Assembly: GCF_000719115.1 (NCBI RefSeq)
Contig: NZ_JOEA01000003.1
Coordinates: forward strand, 310,001-374,000
Direction: 5' to 3'
DNA: 64,000 nt
Source: Lentzea albidocapillata
Lineage (GTDB): Bacteria; Actinomycetota; Actinomycetes; Mycobacteriales; Pseudonocardiaceae
Numbering within the stretch: position 1 is the first letter of the stretch; each line of letters opens with the position of its first letter. Both the position numbers and the translations under genes were made by a program. Shown piece by piece: positions 52,641 to 60,248 of the stretch. The notes beneath the pieces are model-generated. The model ran no database searches and was not told where the DNA came from. It saw nothing but the letters and a program-made list of their open reading frames with translations.

Positions 52641-55013
52641 CTATGCGAGAAGCGAATGCTCGCGGTGCGGGGTCCAGCGCAGGTGCACGGTGCGGTCGGG
52701 CGGGTCGGCTCGCAGCAGGGACAACCGCGGCCGGACGGCGTCGGTGCGCGCGGACGGCGGCTTGCGGCTGCCGGCGCGGTACTGGACCGGCCACTCGGCC
52801 CGGTAGCCCTGTTCGGCCGCCGCGTGCAGCGTCCAGTGCGGGTCGTACAGGTGCGTGCGCCCGATCGCGCACAGGTCCGCGCGGCCCGCCAGCAGGATGG
52901 AGTTGACGTCGTCGTAGGAGGCGATGGCGCCGACCGCGATGACGGCCGCGCCCGTGACCTCGTGGCGGATGCGGTCCGCGAACGGCGTCTGGTAGCTGCG
53001 GCCGTACGCAGGGCGCTCGTCCGCCGTGACCTGGCCGGTGGAGACGTCGATCGCGTCCGCGCCGTGGGCGACGAACGCGCGGGCGATCTCCACGGCGTCG
53101 TGCTCGGTGTTGCCGCCGTCGACCCAGTCGGTCGCAGAGATGCGCACGATCATCGGGCGCTCGGCCGGCCACACGGCACGGACGGCGTCGAACACTTCCA
53201 GGGGGAACCTCAGCCGGTTGGCCAGCGAACCGGCGTACTCGTCCGTGCGCTGGTTCGCGATCGGTGAGAGGAACGAGGACAACAGATAGCCGTGCGCGCA
53301 GTGCAGTTCGAGCAGGTCGAACCCTGCTTCGGCACCACGTTCCGCAGCCGCGACGAACTCCGCGGTGATCCGGTCCAGATCCTCGCGAGCGGCCTCGGCG
53401 GGGATCGGCGATCCGGGGCCGTACGGCAGCGGAGATGGGCCGATGACGTCCCAGTTGCCCTCGGGCAGCGGTTCGTCCATGCCCTCCCACATCAGGCGGG
53501 TGGAGCCCTTGCGGCCGGAGTGGCCGAGTTGCAGGCCGATGCGGGCGGTGCTCCGCTCGTGCGCGAAGGCCACGATCCGGGCCCAGGAGTCGCGCTGCTC
53601 GTCGGTCCACATACCGGTGCAGCCGGGCGTGATGCGGCCCTCGGACGAGACGCAGACCATTTCGGTCATCACCAGTCCCGCGCCGCCCATGGCCTTCGAC
53701 CCCAGGTGGACGAGGTGGAAGTCGCCCGGCACGCCGTCGACGGCGGAGTACATGTCCATCGCCGAGACGATCACGCGGTTCTTGAGTTCCAGCTGTCCCA
53801 GGCGGAACGGCTGGAACATCGCCGGGGCCGTGCTCCGGAGTCCCTGGGAGGCGGCGAAGGCGGCGTCGACGCGGTCGGCGAACTCCGGGTCGCGGGTGCG
53901 CAGGTTGTCGTAGGTGATCCGGCGCGAGCGCGTGAGCAGGTTGAAGCAGAACCGGGTCGGCTCCTGCTCCGCGTACATGCCGATGTTCTCGAACCACTCC
54001 AGGGACGCCTGGGCAGCCCGCTGGGTCGACTCGACGACGGGGCGCCGCTCGGTCTCGTAGGCCGTCAGCGCGGTCTCGACGTCACGGTGTTCGTGCAGGC
54101 ACGCGGCGAGGGCGAGCGAGTCCTCCATCGCGAGTTTGGTGCCCGAGCCGATCGAGAAGTGCGCGGTGTGCGCGGCGTCGCCCACGAGGACGACGTTGCC
54201 GTGGTGCCACCGTTCATTGCGCACGGTGGTGAAGCTGAGCCACTTCGAGTTGTTGGCGAACACCTGGTGGCCGGCCAGCTCCTCCGCGAACAGCTCGCGG
54301 ATCCGCTGGACGGCGTGTTCGTCCGAGACACCCGGCGCGAACTCCTGGGCGGTGTCGAAACCGGCGCGGCGCCACACGTCCTCGTGCATCTCGACGATGA
54401 ACGTGGAACCGCTGTCGGAGTAGGGATAGCCGTGGACCTGCATGGTCCCCCACGGCGTGTCCTTGATGAAGAACTGGAACGCCTCGAAGACCAGATCCGT
54501 GCCGAGCCACATGTACTTGTTGCGGCGCGGGTCCACAGTGGAACGGAAGACGTCCGGGAAGGACTGCCGCACCAGCGAGTTGACGCCGTCCGCGCCGACC
54601 ACGAGGTCATGTGACGCGCTCAGGACTTCCGCGGCGGGCGCGGGCGTCGAGAAGTGCACGACCACGCCGAGATCGCGGCACCGCCGCTGGAGGAGACCGA
54701 GCAGTTCCTTGCGGCTCATCGCGGCGAACCCCTGCCCGCCCACGGTGTGGCTCTCGCCGCGGTAGTGGATGTCGATGTCCGTCCAGCGCGCGAACCGGCG
54801 TGACATTGCCTCGGCGAACTCCGGGTCGGCGTTCTCGATCCCGCCGAGCGTCTCGTCGGAGAACACCACGCCGAAGCCGAACGTCACGTCGGCAGCGTCG
54901 CGTTCCCAGATGGTGACATCATGCGAAGGGTCGAGCTGTTTCATCAGCGCGGCGAGGTAGAGCCCACCGGGGCCGCCTCCGACGATCGCGATCTTTCTGG
55001 CTGCGATCCTCAT
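52641..55013 (-). CDS. Bifunctional aryl-CoA 5-hydroxylase / old-yellow-enzyme reductase (salicylyl-CoA or 2-aminobenzoyl-CoA type)
   Basis: 790 residues, two flavoprotein halves. Residues ~1-390 are a class A FAD monooxygenase: IAIVGGGPGGLYLAALMKQ, VVGADGVNSLVRQ, VVLVGDAAHTAHFSIGSGTK. Residues ~400-770 are an OYE barrel: FRLGQLELKNRVIVSAMD, LELHCAHGYLLSSFLSP, RTDEYAGSLANR. The same fusion is seen in 2-aminobenzoyl-CoA monooxygenase/reductase, and databases call such proteins salicylyl-CoA 5-hydroxylase/oxidoreductase. It should hydroxylate an aryl-CoA at C5 and may reduce the ring. ATG 55013 overlaps the ligase stop (ATGA). Last gene of its operon. Confidence 0.9.
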   Translation of the reverse strand: MRIAARKIAIVGGGPGGLYLAALMKQLDPSHDVTIWERDAADVTFGFGVVFSDETLGGIENADPEFAEAMSRRFARWTDIDIHYRGESHTVGGQGFAAMSRKELLGLLQRRCRDLGVVVHFSTPAPAAEVLSASHDLVVGADGVNSLVRQSFPDVFRSTVDPRRNKYMWLGTDLVFEAFQFFIKDTPWGTMQVHGYPYSDSGSTFIVEMHEDVWRRAGFDTAQEFAPGVSDEHAVQRIRELFAEELAGHQVFANNSKWLSFTTVRNERWHHGNVVLVGDAAHTAHFSIGSGTKLAMEDSLALAACLHEHRDVETALTAYETERRPVVESTQRAAQASLEWFENIGMYAEQEPTRFCFNLLTRSRRITYDNLRTRDPEFADRVDAAFAASQGLRSTAPAMFQPFRLGQLELKNRVIVSAMDMYSAVDGVPGDFHLVHLGSKAMGGAGLVMTEMVCVSSEGRITPGCTGMWTDEQRDSWARIVAFAHERSTARIGLQLGHSGRKGSTRLMWEGMDEPLPEGNWDVIGPSPLPYGPGSPIPAEAAREDLDRITAEFVAAAERGAEAGFDLLELHCAHGYLLSSFLSPIANQRTDEYAGSLANRLRFPLEVFDAVRAVWPAERPMIVRISATDWVDGGNTEHDAVEIARAFVAHGADAIDVSTGQVTADERPAYGRSYQTPFADRIRHEVTGAAVIAVGAIASYDDVNSILLAGRADLCAIGRTHLYDPHWTLHAAAEQGYRAEWPVQYRAGSRKPPSARTDAVRPRLSLLRADPPDRTVHLRWTPHREHSLLA

Positions 55014-56596
55014 GTCAGCACCTCGTCCTCGACGATCTTGCGGAGTGCGAAGCGCTGCAGCTTGCCGCTGGCGTTGCGCGGCAACGACGTGCGGAACCGC
55101 ACCTCGCGCGGGTACTTGTAGGGCGCGATGGTCCGCTTCACGTGGTCCTGGATCTCCCTGGCCTTCGCGTCGGAGCCCGGCACGCCGTCGCGCAGCACCA
55201 CGAAGGCGCAGACGACCGCGCCGCGTTCGTCGTCGGGCTTGGCGACGACAGCGGACTCCAGCACGTCCGGGTGGGTGTCGATGGCCTCCTCGACCTCGGG
55301 GCCGCCGATGTTGTAGCCGGAGGAGACGATCATGTGGTCGCTGCGGGCGTGGTAGTGGAAGTAGCCGTCCTCGTCGCGGTGGAAGACGTCACCGGTGACG
55401 TTCCAGCCGTCCACCACGTAGTCCTTCTGCCGCTCGTCGTCGAGGTAGCGGCAGCCGACGGGGCCGATCACGCCGAGGCGTCCCTGCTCGCCGGGGCCGA
55501 GTTCCTCGCCGTCGGGGCCGAGCACGGTGGCGCGGTAGCCCGGCACCGGTTTGCCGGTGGAGCCGGGCCGGATGTCGTCACCGGCGGCAGAGATGAAGAT
55601 GTGCAACAGCTCCGTGGCGCCGATGCCGTCGATCACCTTCAGCCCCAGCCGATCCCGCAGCCGTTGCCAGGTCTCCTGGGGGATGTGCTCGCCGGCCGAC
55701 ACCGCGGTCCGCAGGCCGCCGAGCTTCGCCTCGATGCCCTCGCGCAGGATCGCCTTGTACGCGGTCGGCGCCGTCGCGAGCACCGTGACTCCGTGCTGTT
55801 GCACGAGGTCCGCGACCTGGGCGGGCGTGGCGGCCTCGGTCAGCAGGGCGCAGGCACCGGCCCGCAGCGGGAAGACGACGAGCATGCCCAGGCCGAACGT
55901 GAAGGCGAACGGGGCGGTGCAGGCGACGACGTCGTCCTCGGTCAGCCGCAGCACGTGCCGGCCGAAGGTGTTGTCGATGGACAGGACGTCGCGGTGGAAG
56001 TGCGCGGTGATCTTCGGTGTGCCGGTGCTGCCGGACGTCGGCGCCAGCAACGCCACGTCGTCGGCGGCGGTGTCCACGGCGGTGAACTGCCCCGACCTGG
56101 TCGCGGCGAGCACCTGGAGGTCGTCGTAGTCCACCACGGTCAGCGACGGCAGGTCTCGGACGTCCTCCGTGAACCGCTGGTCCACCAACGCGATCGACGG
56201 ACGGGTGCGCTCGACGATCGGCGCGAGTTCGCGGGTCCTCAACGCGGCCATGGTCGTCACCACGACACCGCCCGCCTTGAGGACGCCGAGCCACGCGGCC
56301 ACGGTCCACGGGTTGTTGGGCGAGCGGAGCAGAACCCGTTGTCCTGGAACGAGACCGAGCTCTTCGGTCAGCACCTGGGCCACCTGGTTCGCGCGGGTCA
56401 GCAACTCGCCGTAGGACCACGTCTCCCCCGCCGGCGTGCGCAGCGCGGGGCGGTCGGGGCCGAACCTCGCCACCGGGACGTCGATGAGCTCGGTGGCGGC
56501 GTTGAGCCGGGCCGGGTAGTCCAGTTCCGGCGTCGTGAACTCGATGGCAGGCCACAGCGCCGCGGGAGGTAAGTGGTCGCGAGCGAAGGTGTCCAT
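55010..56596 (-). CDS. Aryl-CoA ligase (benzoate/2-aminobenzoate-CoA ligase family)
   Basis: 528 residues. AMP-binding P-loop LAPTSGSTGTPKITAHF (~195), IDGIGATELLHIFIS (~330), and the C-terminal SDHMIVSSGYNIGGPEVEEA with lysine in PRNASGKLQR. Closest in look to benzoate- and 2-aminobenzoate-CoA ligases. It forms the aryl-CoA substrate of the next enzyme; ATGA overlap with that gene shows close coupling. ATG 56596 is 9 nt after AAGGA. Substrate is inferred from neighbours, not read from the pocket. Confidence 0.9.
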   Translation of the reverse strand: MDTFARDHLPPAALWPAIEFTTPELDYPARLNAATELIDVPVARFGPDRPALRTPAGETWSYGELLTRANQVAQVLTEELGLVPGQRVLLRSPNNPWTVAAWLGVLKAGGVVVTTMAALRTRELAPIVERTRPSIALVDQRFTEDVRDLPSLTVVDYDDLQVLAATRSGQFTAVDTAADDVALLAPTSGSTGTPKITAHFHRDVLSIDNTFGRHVLRLTEDDVVACTAPFAFTFGLGMLVVFPLRAGACALLTEAATPAQVADLVQQHGVTVLATAPTAYKAILREGIEAKLGGLRTAVSAGEHIPQETWQRLRDRLGLKVIDGIGATELLHIFISAAGDDIRPGSTGKPVPGYRATVLGPDGEELGPGEQGRLGVIGPVGCRYLDDERQKDYVVDGWNVTGDVFHRDEDGYFHYHARSDHMIVSSGYNIGGPEVEEAIDTHPDVLESAVVAKPDDERGAVVCAFVVLRDGVPGSDAKAREIQDHVKRTIAPYKYPREVRFRTSLPRNASGKLQRFALRKIVEDEVLT

Positions 56597-56622
56597 GGGT
56601 GAAGTCCTTCCCGGGCGGCGGG

Positions 56623-57522
56623 TCAGGAAGCGCGGATCATGCCCTCCTGGGCAACGGTGGCGAGGTGGAGGCCATCGCGGGTGAAGAAGCGGCCGTGGCC
56701 GAGTCCCCGGCCCGCGTCGGCGGCGACGGCCTCCTGCACGTAGAGGAGCCAGTCGTCGATCGGACCCTCGCGGTGGAACCACATCGCGTGGTCGAGGCTC
56801 GCGGTGACGAGGCCCGGCCGGGCCCACGGCAGGTCGAGGACCCGCAGGACGGGCTCGAGGATCGTGTAGTCGCAGACGTAGGCCAGTGCGGCGAGGTCAC
56901 GCTGGGCGTCGGTCAGGCCGTCGACCGGGCGCAGCGCGTCGAACGGCTTGATCCACACGGCCTGGTGCGGGACCTTCTCGCCTTCGACCGCGAGGTAGAC
57001 CGGGCCGGGCGCGTGCCGCATGTCGAAGCTGCGGCCGCCGGACCAGTAGGCCTTCGACTCCTCGGTCATCGAACCGCCGGAGCGTCCCGCGAGGAAGTCC
57101 GCGGAGCTTTCCAGCTCGTCCGGGCCTGGCAGGTCGCCGGTGAACTCGGTCCGATACCCGCCGCCCGGCTCGCCCGCGGCGAAGTTCGCGAGGCAGGCGT
57201 AGAGGGGCTTGCCGTTCTGGTAGCCGCGGACCTGCCGGGTGCTGTAGCCGCGGCCGTCGCGCAGCAGCTCGACCTCGTACCGCACCTGGGCGCCGATGTC
57301 GGCCGGGCGCAGGAAGTAGCTGTGCATCGAGTGCAGCGTCTTGCCGTCCGTCACCGAACGCATGGCGGCGGCTGCGGCTGCGGCGACCAGGTCCCCGCCG
57401 TAGGCCTTGGGCCACGGGCAGGGCTGGGTGACGGCGGTGAAGGCGAGGTCGAAGTGCTCCGGATCGGCCTTCTCCAGCGCGATGGCCTCGGTGAAGATCG
57501 CCGAAGTCGGCACGGGCGTCAT
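56623..57522 (-). CDS. Acyl-CoA thioesterase, TesB/double-hotdog type
   Basis: 299 residues. KAYGGDLVAAAAAAAMRSV and HSMHSYFLRPADIGAQVRYEV (first hotdog), TASLDHAMWFHREGPIDDWL (second hotdog) match the TesB family. In this operon it probably frees the hydroxylated aromatic acid from CoA before ring cleavage. ATG 57522 overlaps the cupin stop (ATGA), and the ligase follows 26 bp after its stop. Confidence 0.88.
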   Translation of the reverse strand: MTPVPTSAIFTEAIALEKADPEHFDLAFTAVTQPCPWPKAYGGDLVAAAAAAAMRSVTDGKTLHSMHSYFLRPADIGAQVRYEVELLRDGRGYSTRQVRGYQNGKPLYACLANFAAGEPGGGYRTEFTGDLPGPDELESSADFLAGRSGGSMTEESKAYWSGGRSFDMRHAPGPVYLAVEGEKVPHQAVWIKPFDALRPVDGLTDAQRDLAALAYVCDYTILEPVLRVLDLPWARPGLVTASLDHAMWFHREGPIDDWLLYVQEAVAADAGRGLGHGRFFTRDGLHLATVAQEGMIRAS

Positions 57523-58001
57523 CGGCTCAGCCAGTCGCGCAGGTCCTCGTCCGGCACGTCGTCGAGGTTCACGACGATGTTCTCCGGCGTCCGCGTGGTC
57601 ATCCACGTGAGCGACTTGTTGCGGTCGAGGTTGCACTCGATGTGCGGCATGAACGGCGGCACGAACACCCAGTCACCCTCCTCCATGTCGACGTAGTCCT
57701 CGAACTTCTCCCCGAAGTAGATTCGCGCCCGGCCGGACAGCACGTAGCCGCCGGTCTCGGCCTCGCCGTGGTGGTGGGTGACCGAGCGGTAGCCCGGTTC
57801 GTTGGTGACCTTCCCGAACCACAGCTTCGTCGCCGGGGTGTGCTGGATGCTCACCCCCGAGATCCGGATCGCACCGCCGGAGTTCGCGGTGTCCGGGTTC
57901 TCGGCACCGCCGCGCGTCACGACCGGCGCGACCAGGCCGCTGGGCAGCCGGTACATCGAGTTGTCGCCGTCGAGCTGGTACTTGCTCAGGTCGGGCTCCA
58001 T
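57519..58001 (-). CDS. Single-domain cupin, possible ring-cleavage dioxygenase
   Basis: 160 residues, one cupin barrel. Motif 1 SVTHHHGEAETGGYVLSG keeps the H-x-H-x3-E metal ligands; motif 2 VFVPPFMPHIECN keeps the second His. It is much shorter than gentisate 1,2-dioxygenase (~340) and near the size of 3-hydroxyanthranilate dioxygenase. As first gene of an aryl-CoA operon with no other dioxygenase, it is the best candidate for opening the ring; isomerase or storage roles cannot be excluded. ATG 58001 is at the predicted transcription start, so the mRNA is probably leaderless. Confidence 0.85.
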   Translation of the reverse strand: MEPDLSKYQLDGDNSMYRLPSGLVAPVVTRGGAENPDTANSGGAIRISGVSIQHTPATKLWFGKVTNEPGYRSVTHHHGEAETGGYVLSGRARIYFGEKFEDYVDMEEGDWVFVPPFMPHIECNLDRNKSLTWMTTRTPENIVVNLDDVPDEDLRDWLSR

Positions 58002-58008
58002 ATCTCGT

Positions 58009-58036
58009 ATTCTTCACGACCGTCAGATAGTGTCAA
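58009..58036 (-). promoter_or_regulatory. Promoter of the cupin operon
   Basis: On the minus strand a perfect TTGACA (58036-58031), 16 nt, and AAGAAT (58014-58009), 7-8 nt before the cupin ATG at 58001. This leaves no room for a leader. The whole divergent gap to ridA is 40 bp (58002-58041); GTATT/AATAC arms (58007-58011, 58035-58039) frame it and could bind PaaX. Confidence 0.6.
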
Positions 58037-58041
58037 TACTC

Positions 58042-58458
58042 ATGAGGCCAGCAGCAGTGAACCCGGCCAGCCTTCCGGCGCCGAGCGGCTACTCCCACGG
58101 CACCCTCGCCGGCAACACCCTCCACCTCGGCGGGCAGACCGCCCTGGACGCCGACATGAAGATCGTTCCCGGTGGCATCGTCGAGCAGTTCCGCCAGGCG
58201 TTCGGCAACGTGCTGGCGACGTTGCGCGCGGCCGGGGGCGAACCGGAGGACCTGGTCAGCATCACGATCTACCTCACCGACATCCCGGACTACCAGGCTC
58301 ACGGCAGGGAGATCGGCAAGGTGTGGCGCGAGCTCGCCGGCCCCGTCTACCCGGCCATGGCGGGCATCGGCTGCACCGCGCTGTGGCAGCCGGAAGCACT
58401 GATCGAGATCCTCGGCGTCGCCGTGATCCCGGAAGACCGGCTGGTCAGGCCCAGCTGA
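58042..58458 (+). CDS. RidA-family enamine/imine deaminase
   Basis: 138 residues, usual RidA length. GNTLHLGGQTALDADMKIV, FGNVLATLRAAGGEPEDLV and the C-terminal ILGVAVIPEDRLV match the YjgF/RidA fold, which hydrolyses enamines and imines and includes 2-aminomuconate deaminases. ATG 58042 has no ribosome site and may be leaderless; GTG 58057 with GAGG upstream would remove 5 residues. A deaminase here is the main hint that the aromatic substrate carries an amino group. Confidence 0.9.
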   Translation: MRPAAVNPASLPAPSGYSHGTLAGNTLHLGGQTALDADMKIVPGGIVEQFRQAFGNVLATLRAAGGEPEDLVSITIYLTDIPDYQAHGREIGKVWRELAGPVYPAMAGIGCTALWQPEALIEILGVAVIPEDRLVRPS

Positions 58459-58516
58459 ATCGATAGCGCTTTCATGATCTACGCAACGTGAACGCGATAG
58501 TCGAGGAGGTTCGCGG

Positions 58517-59389
58517 GTGAAGCTCGCTTCTGTGACGGTCGGCGGCGTCCGTCGTGGCGGTGTCGTCGACGGGGAGTCGATCGCGCTGCTGTCGTGCACG
58601 GTCGATGACGTCGTGCGGGGCGCTCCGGTCGAGACCGGCGAGGTCCTGCCGCTGGCGGAAGTGCGGCTGGAGGCGCCGCTGCACCGGTTCAACCGCGACA
58701 TCCTCTGCACCGGCTGGAACTACTGGGACCACTTCGAGGAGTCCGCCGGCAAGCGCGAGGGTCAGGACCCGGTCTCCCGTCCGCTGCGCCCGACCTTCTT
58801 CACCAAGGGCCCGGACACGGTCGTCGGGCCGCACGACGCCATCGCCTACGACCCCGGGTTGTCCCAGAAGTGGGACTACGAGGCCGAGATCGCGATGGTC
58901 ATCGGGCGCGACGGCCGTTCGATCCCGGAGGAGAAGGCGCTGGACCACGTGTTCGGCTTCCTCGTCGCCAACGACGTTTCGCAGCGCGATCTCCAACGCG
59001 CGCACGGCGGCCAATGGCTCAAGGGCAAGAGTCTCGACGCCACGATGCCGCTCGGACCGTGGCTGACCACCGTCGACGAGATCCACGACCTCGGCGGGCT
59101 GCGGGTCCAGTGCGAGGTCAACGGTGTCCTGCTGCAGGACGCGACCAGCGCGCAGATGGCGTTCTCCTTCGCGCGGATCATCGCCGAGCTCAGTCACGGC
59201 ATGACCCTGCGCGCCGGCGACGTGATCCTGACCGGCACTCCCAGCGGCGTCGGCAACGCCCGCGAACCGCAGCTCTTCCTGCGCGACGGCGACGTCGTGG
59301 TCACGCGCGTCAGCGGCTTGGGCGAACTGCGCAACACCGTCACGCTGACCGACCTCGCCGGGCCGGGCGTTAAGCTCGCCGGCAGCTGA
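58517..59389 (+). CDS. Fumarylacetoacetate hydrolase family protein
   Basis: 290 residues. C-terminal FAH catalytic core: ICTGWNYWDHFEE, WDYEAEIAMVIG with the metal Glu residues, FGFLVANDVSQRDLQ, and GDVILTGTPSGVG. FAH enzymes hydrolyse C-C bonds in acylpyruvates or decarboxylate oxo-acids, e.g. fumarylpyruvate hydrolase at the end of gentisate-type pathways. It would release central metabolites after ring opening. GTG 58517 follows CGAGGAGG. It lies 58 bp after ridA; that gap has GATAGCGC and CGCGATAG repeats. Confidence 0.92.
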   Translation: MKLASVTVGGVRRGGVVDGESIALLSCTVDDVVRGAPVETGEVLPLAEVRLEAPLHRFNRDILCTGWNYWDHFEESAGKREGQDPVSRPLRPTFFTKGPDTVVGPHDAIAYDPGLSQKWDYEAEIAMVIGRDGRSIPEEKALDHVFGFLVANDVSQRDLQRAHGGQWLKGKSLDATMPLGPWLTTVDEIHDLGGLRVQCEVNGVLLQDATSAQMAFSFARIIAELSHGMTLRAGDVILTGTPSGVGNAREPQLFLRDGDVVVTRVSGLGELRNTVTLTDLAGPGVKLAGS

Positions 59390-59423
59390 TCAAGGTGAGG
59401 AGAGGGCACTGAACGTCGCGGAC

Positions 59424-60248
59424 ATGACCGTGGAAGCCGCGGCTCCCGCCGGTCGCGACCGGCTCGGCCCGCTCATCATCACGATCTTCGGCCTCTACGC
59501 GCGCGGCGAGCACAACTGGCTCTCCGTGGCCTCCGTCGTCCAGCTCATGGCCGACCTCGGCGTGGACGGCCAGGCCGCCCGGTCCTCAATCTCCCGCCTG
59601 AAGCGCCGGGGCGTCGTCCGGGCCGAACGCCGCGACGGCGCCGGCTACGCCCTGGCCGAGTCCACACTGGAGACCCTGGCCGAGGGCGACACCCGCATCT
59701 TCGAACGCCGCCGGGCCACCACCGAGGACGGCTGGCTCGTGGTCGTGTTCTCCGTGCCCGAGTCCGAACGCGAGAAGCGCCACGCCCTGCGCACCAGCCT
59801 GACCCAGCTCGGCTTCGGCACCACGGCCCCCGGCGTGTGGGTGGCACCGGGCAACCTGGCCACCGAGACCCGCCGCACCCTGGAGCGCCGCGGGTTGTCC
59901 GAGTACGTGGACATCTTCACCGGCGACCACTTCGCGTTCGGCGACCTGCGCTCCAAGGTCCGCGCCTGGTGGGACCTGGACGAACTGGCCGACCTGTACG
60001 CCGACTTCCTGCGCCGCCACCGCCCCGTCCTGGATGCCGGCATCACCTCACCCGAGCAGGCGTTCCAGACGTACGTGCCGATGCTCACCGCGTGGCGCCG
60101 CCTGCCGTACAGCGACCCCGGCCTTCCTCTCTCGCTGCTGCCTCCCGGCTGGAACGGCGTCACGGCCGAGGCCCTGTTCGAGCAGCTCAACACCACTTTG
60201 AGCGCACCTGCCCGCGAACACGCGCTGGCCGTGATTCACGGCCGTTAG
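59424..60248 (+). CDS. PaaX-family transcriptional regulator
   Basis: 274 residues. N-terminal winged helix (IITIFGLYARGEHNWLSVASVV...ARSSISRLKRRGVV), central PaaX domain (GWLVVVFSVPESEREKRHALR...LGFGTTAPGVWVAPG) and C-terminal domain ending before YVPMLTAWRRLPYSDPGLP. PaaX proteins sense aryl-CoA thioesters and repress their catabolic genes. Located 34 bp after the FAH gene, it probably controls both arms of this cluster with the aryl-CoA as inducer. The stop overlaps the converging peptidase stop by 4 nt. Confidence 0.93.
   Translation: MTVEAAAPAGRDRLGPLIITIFGLYARGEHNWLSVASVVQLMADLGVDGQAARSSISRLKRRGVVRAERRDGAGYALAESTLETLAEGDTRIFERRRATTEDGWLVVVFSVPESEREKRHALRTSLTQLGFGTTAPGVWVAPGNLATETRRTLERRGLSEYVDIFTGDHFAFGDLRSKVRAWWDLDELADLYADFLRRHRPVLDAGITSPEQAFQTYVPMLTAWRRLPYSDPGLPLSLLPPGWNGVTAEALFEQLNTTLSAPAREHALAVIHGR

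Follow-up and report, generated by a model that had tools for sequence, protein, structure and literature searches.

A cupin and an FAH-family hydrolase may replace the beta-oxidation half of the aerobic 2-aminobenzoyl-CoA pathway in Lentzea albidocapillata and other actinobacteria

The locus considered here raises the question of how a ring-reduced anthraniloyl-CoA intermediate might be finished by a gene cluster that lacks the expected beta-oxidation genes. It lies in a stretch of 64,000 nucleotides of Lentzea albidocapillata (contig NZ_JOEA01000003.1, positions 310,001 to 374,000; below, the window), part of a genome of 8.64 Mb, and consists of seven genes in two divergent sets. The minus strand encodes a small cupin, a TesB-like thioesterase, an aryl-CoA ligase and a fusion of an FAD hydroxylase with an old-yellow-enzyme (OYE) reductase, and the plus strand a RidA-family (Rid) protein, an FAH-family hydrolase and a PaaX-like regulator. 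In Azoarcus, according to passages of a review (PMC4539516), the ring-reduced intermediate is finished by beta-oxidation. Azoarcus-type genes for this are absent (at ≥40% identity) from the window and from the six other cupin-bearing loci among 38 that we compared. We see an even chance that the cluster is an actinobacterial version of the aerobic 2-aminobenzoyl-CoA (anthraniloyl-CoA) pathway whose beta-oxidation half has been replaced by a module of cupin and FAH.

The comparison on which this reading is built selected its loci through the fused enzyme and covered the window, every other genome of the phylum that exceeded the NF006101 cut-off (18 of 396 searched) and 19 plasmid records picked from 60 listed of 277. 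Full-length matches under that cut-off (e.g. 750–919 bits) were left out, as were L087, L088, L091–L093, L100–L102 (fetched by cupin) and L139–L141. Genes were assigned by similarity to a reference set within a reach of 8.5 kb, with identity floors of 40% for enoyl-CoA hydratase (ECH) and acyl-CoA dehydrogenase (ACAD), 35% for FAH and 50% for the cupin; three loci (L118, L127, L131) are shortened by contig or record ends, and the RidA genes of L096, L098 and L134 lie beyond the reach. Seven of the 38 loci combine the 160-residue cupin with FAH, all seven with RidA and TesB and without ECH or ACAD of the type found in abm clusters, those of the 2-aminobenzoyl-CoA pathway. By the same thresholds 29 loci carry ECH, 26 of them with ACAD, and neither a window-type cupin nor FAH, while one has a full-size gentisate-type cupin with FAH and one has none of these genes. 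The ECH-type loci include nine from one genus of the same class which possess a PaaX-like gene and RidA (L116–L122, L125, L126). Among 80 loci found through the cupin, an abm-type ECH never occurs and an ACAD occurs once, at 32% identity.

For cupin versus ECH, p = 3e-6 by Fisher's exact test; as the loci are related, we regard the tree of the fused enzyme as the better argument. In this tree of 52 rows, which took in 20 of the 80 cupin loci, the cupin label has to change at least three times, each change being forced by a well-supported branch, and the cupin-type loci form one group in no bootstrap tree; the three changes may be gains or losses. That two modules alternate next to one and the same conserved enzyme suggests that they perform the same function. 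The pair of cupin and FAH takes the place of the beta-oxidation genes not only in actinobacteria but also in Alloyangia (L087) and two Rhizobium loci (L088, L092). Both lower halves occur within Streptomyces, with the ECH/ACAD type and a PaaX-like gene in sp. BHT-5-2 (L138) and the cupin type in L024 and others.

Anthranilate is very probably the substrate. A tblastn search against annotated plasmids turned up a matching set of genes on pAL1 of Arthrobacter sp. Rue61a, the ligase of which has demonstrated anthranilate-CoA ligase activity and makes anthraniloyl-CoA; a cloning primer given in the Rue61a genome paper (PMC3534580) matches the start of the ligase gene of the pAL1 cluster, tying the assayed enzyme to that gene. 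The window ligase scores 328.7 against TIGR02262, below the cut-off of 375.25, and its relatives in the Protein Data Bank are benzoate- and anthranilate-CoA ligases. On a plasmid of Rhodococcus erythropolis the cluster adjoins aqdC1 and its neighbours, which we take to be genes of alkylquinolone breakdown, yielding anthranilate. Another Rhodococcus plasmid has it next to genes for tryptophan 2,3-dioxygenase and for a class-V aminotransferase that shares 37% identity with kynureninase, and in L024 it adjoins a tryptophan dioxygenase gene. The Lentzea genome itself encodes, on another contig, a kynureninase over cut-off beside a tryptophan-dioxygenase-like gene (38% identical), and holds no anthranilate 1,2-dioxygenase over cut-off, the single Rieske-type match reaching 107 bits against a required 671.9. 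Neither a gentisate dioxygenase (TIGR02272) nor maiA (TIGR01262) was found in the whole genome at E ≤ 0.001, the mycothiol-dependent maleylpyruvate isomerase family not being part of this search. The kinship with pAL1, the likely anthranilate-forming neighbours and the lack of alternative dioxygenases in the genome make anthranilate the likely substrate, and no other candidate route was found there. The preliminary description of this DNA had proposed an aryl-CoA cluster acting on an aminobenzoate, which the pAL1 ligase supports, and had noted the lack of a full-size gentisate dioxygenase, which holds genome-wide.

We also think it probable that the ring is reduced before it is opened. The fused enzyme, the only full-length one in the genome, scores 1214.9 bits against NF006101 (cut-off 1078), and its reductase active-site motif is intact (HCAHGYL), the aligned position being H in both solved OYEs compared. 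The histidine pair of old yellow enzymes serves in the reductase active site. Of 110 fused enzymes compared, 109 retain the motif HxAHGYL, and the exception, L095, belongs to a gentisate-type cluster. Our main reason for placing reduction before opening is that such clusters show the opposite features: in all three (L095, with L139 and L140 from a later search for more clusters of this type) the first of the histidines is changed to Gln. RidA has no match in L095 and is not among the 11 annotated genes of L139. An additional C-N hydrolase and an Asp/Glu-racemase-like gene (Pfam Amdase) are present in L139 and in L141, which has a gentisate-type cupin and no fused enzyme found in the stretch. 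A 375-residue cupin and FAH go with this cluster type in L095, L139, L140 and L141. This gene set would fit a route without ring reduction, in which C1–C2 cleavage gives an amide that is deamidated before maleate isomerisation; the gentisate-type clusters may represent a genuine 5-hydroxyanthranilate route, with maleamate, maleate and fumarate as its last products. On the Caballeronia SBC1 plasmid (L139, 624–11323) no ligase is found among the 11 annotated genes and an indolepyruvate-ferredoxin-oxidoreductase pair is present.

Metabolites reported from Rue61a are relevant here. Anthranilate-grown cells held anthraniloyl-CoA together with CoA esters of C7H7NO3 and C7H8O4 acids, for which the authors suggested hydroxyanthraniloyl-CoA and cyclohexanedione-carboxyl-CoA (PMC3534580). 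C7H8O4 is the formula, as the acid, of a ring-reduced and deaminated product.

These comparisons lead us to a pathway that we put forward tentatively, at somewhat less than even probability, under the name ‘dihydrogentisate’ pathway: the ring would be reduced as the CoA ester and opened by an O2-dependent monocupin, so as to end directly in succinate and pyruvate. The ligase would convert anthranilate to its CoA ester, and the fused enzyme would hydroxylate C5 with O2, whereupon its reductase half would reduce the ring to 2-amino-5-oxocyclohex-1-ene-carboxyl-CoA. Enamine hydrolysis by the Rid protein would release NH3 and give 2,5-dioxocyclohexane-carboxyl-CoA (the C7H8O4 acid), and TesB would liberate ‘dihydrogentisate’, the acid, either ahead of ring opening or afterwards. 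With O2, the monocupin would cleave C1–C2 of this cyclic beta-dicarbonyl to succinylpyruvate (C7H8O6), which FAH would split with water into succinate and pyruvate. The element balance of the proposed steps closes, and no maleylpyruvate isomerase would be needed because the saturated chain has no cis double bond. Ligase activity has been demonstrated in a relative, and the substrate, the ring reduction and the action of Rid before the branch are supported; the chemistry of the cupin, TesB, FAH and regulator we infer. That the cupin is the O2-dependent ring opener and FAH the last enzyme we rate close to even, on the lower side.

In an alignment of 96 sequences the cupin residues H76, H77, H78, E82 and H120 are invariant. 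They point to a probable metal site rather than specifically to a dioxygenase, since the 3-His (or 2-His-1-Glu) ligand motif also occurs in non-oxygenase cupins. A model with a mean pLDDT of 80.9 was used for the fold search, a first model (52.1) being unusable, and the matches were tied between a Thermotoga cupin, oxalate decarboxylase, gentisate and salicylate dioxygenases, Ni-quercetinase and hydroxynitrile lyase; identification by fold was therefore given up. Five relatives of the cupin outside hydroxylase clusters were fetched from a longer list. All three of those with 53–64% identity have an FAH gene within about 5 kb (cupin genes at L091 8992–9423, L093 9019–9447 and L100 8962–9390), and an alkene reductase gene lies near those of L091 and L100; near the two most distant, L101 and L102 (33–34% identical), no FAH gene is annotated. 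A second cupin of 150 residues is encoded in the abm-type operons of Paracoccus (L089, 13522–13974) and Ruegeria (L090, 13541–13993), with no significant similarity to the window cupin.

The FAH protein has the HxxE, ExE and GKSxD motifs, the first two of which have established roles in the superfamily, and its solved relatives include an acylpyruvase and a putative fumarylpyruvate hydrolase. Succinylpyruvate belongs to the acylpyruvates, which are usual substrates of the family. The clusters contain FAH proteins of two subfamilies that share 42% identity, 28 of 48 loci having the Lentzea type and 20 the Arthrobacter type. Canonical RidA, a 2-aminoacrylate deaminase, uses the catalytic Arg of a PAR motif. 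The Rid protein of the window has PAM where three aligned solved relatives have PAR, and is therefore not a canonical RidA; PAM occurs in 105 of 107 cluster Rid proteins (two were unread), with both kinds of lower half, as would be expected if Rid acts before the branch point.

Several observations weigh against the proposed pathway. The exclusion of the two modules hangs on similarity thresholds, which leave two annotated genes uncounted: a distant member of the FAH family that neighbours sugar genes in the ECH-type Paracoccus locus L089, and an acyl-CoA dehydrogenase in the cupin-type Rhodococcus locus L099, situated some 5 kb away in the company of transport and luciferase-like genes. The best profile match of the cupin is oxalate decarboxylase (E 5.5e-10), with 3-hydroxyanthranilate dioxygenase at E 0.007, and neither its sequence nor its modelled fold separates it from non-oxygenase cupins. 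In 32 of the 80 cupin loci no FAH gene came up within 9 kb, so that of the linkage of RidA and FAH assumed in the preliminary description only the RidA part, present in 80 of 80 relatives, stands throughout. The FAH-less loci include L040 and L047, where the contig ends no more than about 1.2 kb from RidA, and L050, which has a fragment; in 30 of them crude calling of open reading frames revealed no obvious gene replacing FAH, and of 31 FAH-less genomes searched two have a close copy elsewhere (77–79%) and 29 have relatives of at most 49%. The Rid protein lacks the Arg used by canonical RidA. Finally, Rue61a without pAL1 still grows on anthranilate, according to the authors via paralogues (PMC3534580, in part), so the C7H8O4-CoA and the other esters need not stem from the plasmid set.

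Of the alternatives, the one proposed in the preliminary description has hydroxylation followed only by CoA release, opening of free, aromatic 5-hydroxyanthranilate by the small cupin, and then RidA and FAH. The cupin does have weak profile matches to 3-hydroxyanthranilate dioxygenase, use of 5-hydroxyanthranilate is reported for Nocardia opaca (PMC4539516, in part), and the C7H7NO3-CoA of Rue61a would fit, as would the formation of 5-hydroxyanthraniloyl-CoA by 2-aminobenzoyl-CoA monooxygenase/reductase at limiting NADH (both from passages of PMC3534580). However, the same passages record that Rue61a did not grow on 5-hydroxyanthranilate, which was converted only cometabolically, or on gentisate. 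The histidine pair is kept in the window enzyme, whereas clusters with a real gentisate-type cupin have lost the first histidine, show no RidA match or annotation in L095 and L139, and in L139 and L141 add the hydrolase and the racemase-like gene. We have demoted this route on account of the histidine and consider it decidedly unlikely.

A hydrolytic lower half, with FAH (or the cupin) opening 2,5-dioxocyclohexane-carboxyl-CoA to 4-oxopimelate in a retro-Claisen reaction and the cupin acting as decarboxylase, isomerase or tautomerase, also balances in formula, and non-oxygenase cupins are among the best sequence and fold neighbours of the cupin. As 4-oxopimelyl-CoA would still need beta-oxidation, the near absence of abm-type ECH and ACAD from the cupin loci makes this unlikely, with enzymes encoded elsewhere as a possible way out. 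The NCBI name of NF006101, ‘salicylyl-CoA 5-hydroxylase’, suggests a salicylate-gentisate pathway; it is also borne by beta-oxidation-type clusters beside kynureninase. This last reading we reject as very improbable indeed, in agreement with the preliminary description, because the genome has no gentisate dioxygenase, RidA accompanies the cupin at every one of the 80 loci, the pAL1 ligase forms the CoA ester of anthranilate, and Rue61a fails to grow on salicylate (PMC3534580).

The seven genes (Table 1) are open frames without internal stops and match their families at the positions previously described, and their products are 97–100% identical to the counterparts in Lentzea albidocapillata subsp. 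violacea. Described as an overlapping order, the minus-strand genes do overlap by 4 bp at cupin/TesB and at ligase/hydroxylase; the order is not overlapping throughout, as TesB and ligase are separated by 26 bp. A 40-bp gap separates the divergent cupin and RidA genes. All 80 cupin loci have genes for hydroxylase, ligase, TesB and RidA no more than 9 kb from the cupin, 70 have PaaX there and 48 FAH, co-occurrence counts which show that the grouping exceeds chance expectation; these loci are the best 80 of 122 confirmed and, having been chosen via the cupin, give no measure of how often it occurs. Loci of Nonomuraea, Streptosporangium and Spongiactinospora (L028, L032, L045, L034, L066) have the same core genes rearranged in order and strand. 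An indolepyruvate-ferredoxin-oxidoreductase-like gene near the clusters L086, L087, L028, L032 and L078 perhaps supplies the aryl-CoA ester from an arylglyoxylate in place of the ligase.

Table 1. Predicted features of the Lentzea cluster, in window positions
Feature	Position	Strand	Family or basis
2-aminobenzoyl-CoA monooxygenase/reductase (FAD hydroxylase + old-yellow-enzyme reductase fusion), 790 aa	52641..55013	-	FAD_binding_3 + Oxidored_FMN (PF01494 + PF00724); NF006101
Aryl-CoA (anthranilate-CoA) ligase, 528 aa	55010..56596	-	AMP-binding domain; 63% identity to pAL1 ligase
TesB-like acyl-CoA thioesterase, 299 aa	56623..57522	-	4HBT_3 / Acyl_CoA_thio; under TesB equivalog cut-off
Monocupin, 160 aa, proposed ring-opening dioxygenase	57519..58001	-	Cupin_2; cupin fold; invariant H/E residues
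Promoter/operator-like element, 30 bp, TATTGACnnTnnnTGACGnnCGTGAAnAAn	58009..58038	-	Conserved among cupin clusters
RidA-family protein, 138 aa, proposed enamine hydrolase	58042..58458	+	Ribonuc_L-PSP (PF01042); PAM replaces PAR
FAH-superfamily hydrolase, 290 aa, GTG start, proposed acylpyruvate (succinylpyruvate) hydrolase	58517..59389	+	FAA_hydrolase (PF01557)
PaaX-like regulator, 274 aa	59424..60248	+	PaaX, PaaX_M, PaaX_C domains

The gap between cupin and RidA contains a conserved 30-bp element; when as many as 4 substitutions are allowed, 77 of 89 cupin clusters have it. All 82 sites fall between the starts of cupin and RidA or no more than 120 bp from them, the backward pattern used as control gave 0, and at up to 3 mismatches the Lentzea genome has a single site. 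The element overlaps a promoter-like match (TTGACA-16-AAGAAT), and the 40-bp gap holds no useful short inverted repeat. The 12 element-free loci include pAL1 and the other plasmid loci tested (L084–L088, L092, L099). Scoring 144.5 against the PaaX equivalog TIGR02277 (cut-off 264.55), the regulator is a PaaX-domain protein and not PaaX itself. It probably controls the divergent promoters via this element, a pairing that we infer.

Of the possibly undescribed route suggested in the preliminary description, the ligase and monooxygenase/reductase steps have already been described, and the novelty lies in the lower half. The passages on Rue61a give no lower half, nor do they propose a role for the cupin, TesB or FAH (PMC3534580). 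In the open-licence literature of PubMed Central we found no description of a lower half of cupin and FAH, and likewise nothing for succinylpyruvate; the upper half is known, and the lower half is widespread and found nowhere described in that literature. Little is known of how the ring-reduced anthraniloyl-CoA intermediate is broken down further, and the cluster offers a compact set of proteins that lend themselves to testing. If the proposal is correct, reductive-CoA and oxygenolytic strategies would be joined in a single route, spread over many actinobacteria and, separately, some alphaproteobacteria, and the cupin family, of which 1972 homologues were found, would gain a suggested function. 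For such clusters the name ‘salicylyl-CoA 5-hydroxylase’ in the database would then have to be corrected.

Among known systems, acetylacetone dioxygenase (Dke1), a 153-residue cupin which cleaves beta-dicarbonyls with O2 at a 3-His iron (PMC4019311, in part), resembles the window cupin in size, motif and proposed chemistry only; it was absent from the 60 of 64 profile matches and the 50 rows of each fold list that were inspected. The gentisate-type clusters of Cupriavidus taiwanensis (L095) and Caballeronia SBC1 (L139) share the fused hydroxylase/OYE, a cupin and FAH with the window, and differ in the full-size cupin of 375 residues and the change of the OYE histidine to Gln. The pAL1 cluster is much closer, with RidA, FAH, cupin, TesB, ligase, monooxygenase/reductase and PaaX-type genes and identities of 74% for the fused enzyme, 71% for RidA, 64% for the cupin, 63% for the ligase and 58% for TesB; unlike the window it has two PaaX-type genes and an FAH of another subfamily (42% identical), placed between RidA and cupin. 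The abm-type clusters, first known from Azoarcus evansii, were seen here in Ruegeria, Paracoccus, Comamonas, Thalassospira, Sagittula, Streptomyces sp. BHT-5-2 and others. They share with the window the fused monooxygenase/reductase and, in most cases, the ligase and a Rid protein, whereas their lower half consists of ECH and mostly also ACAD and a short-chain dehydrogenase/reductase (SDR), in place of the 160-residue cupin of the window family and a close FAH.

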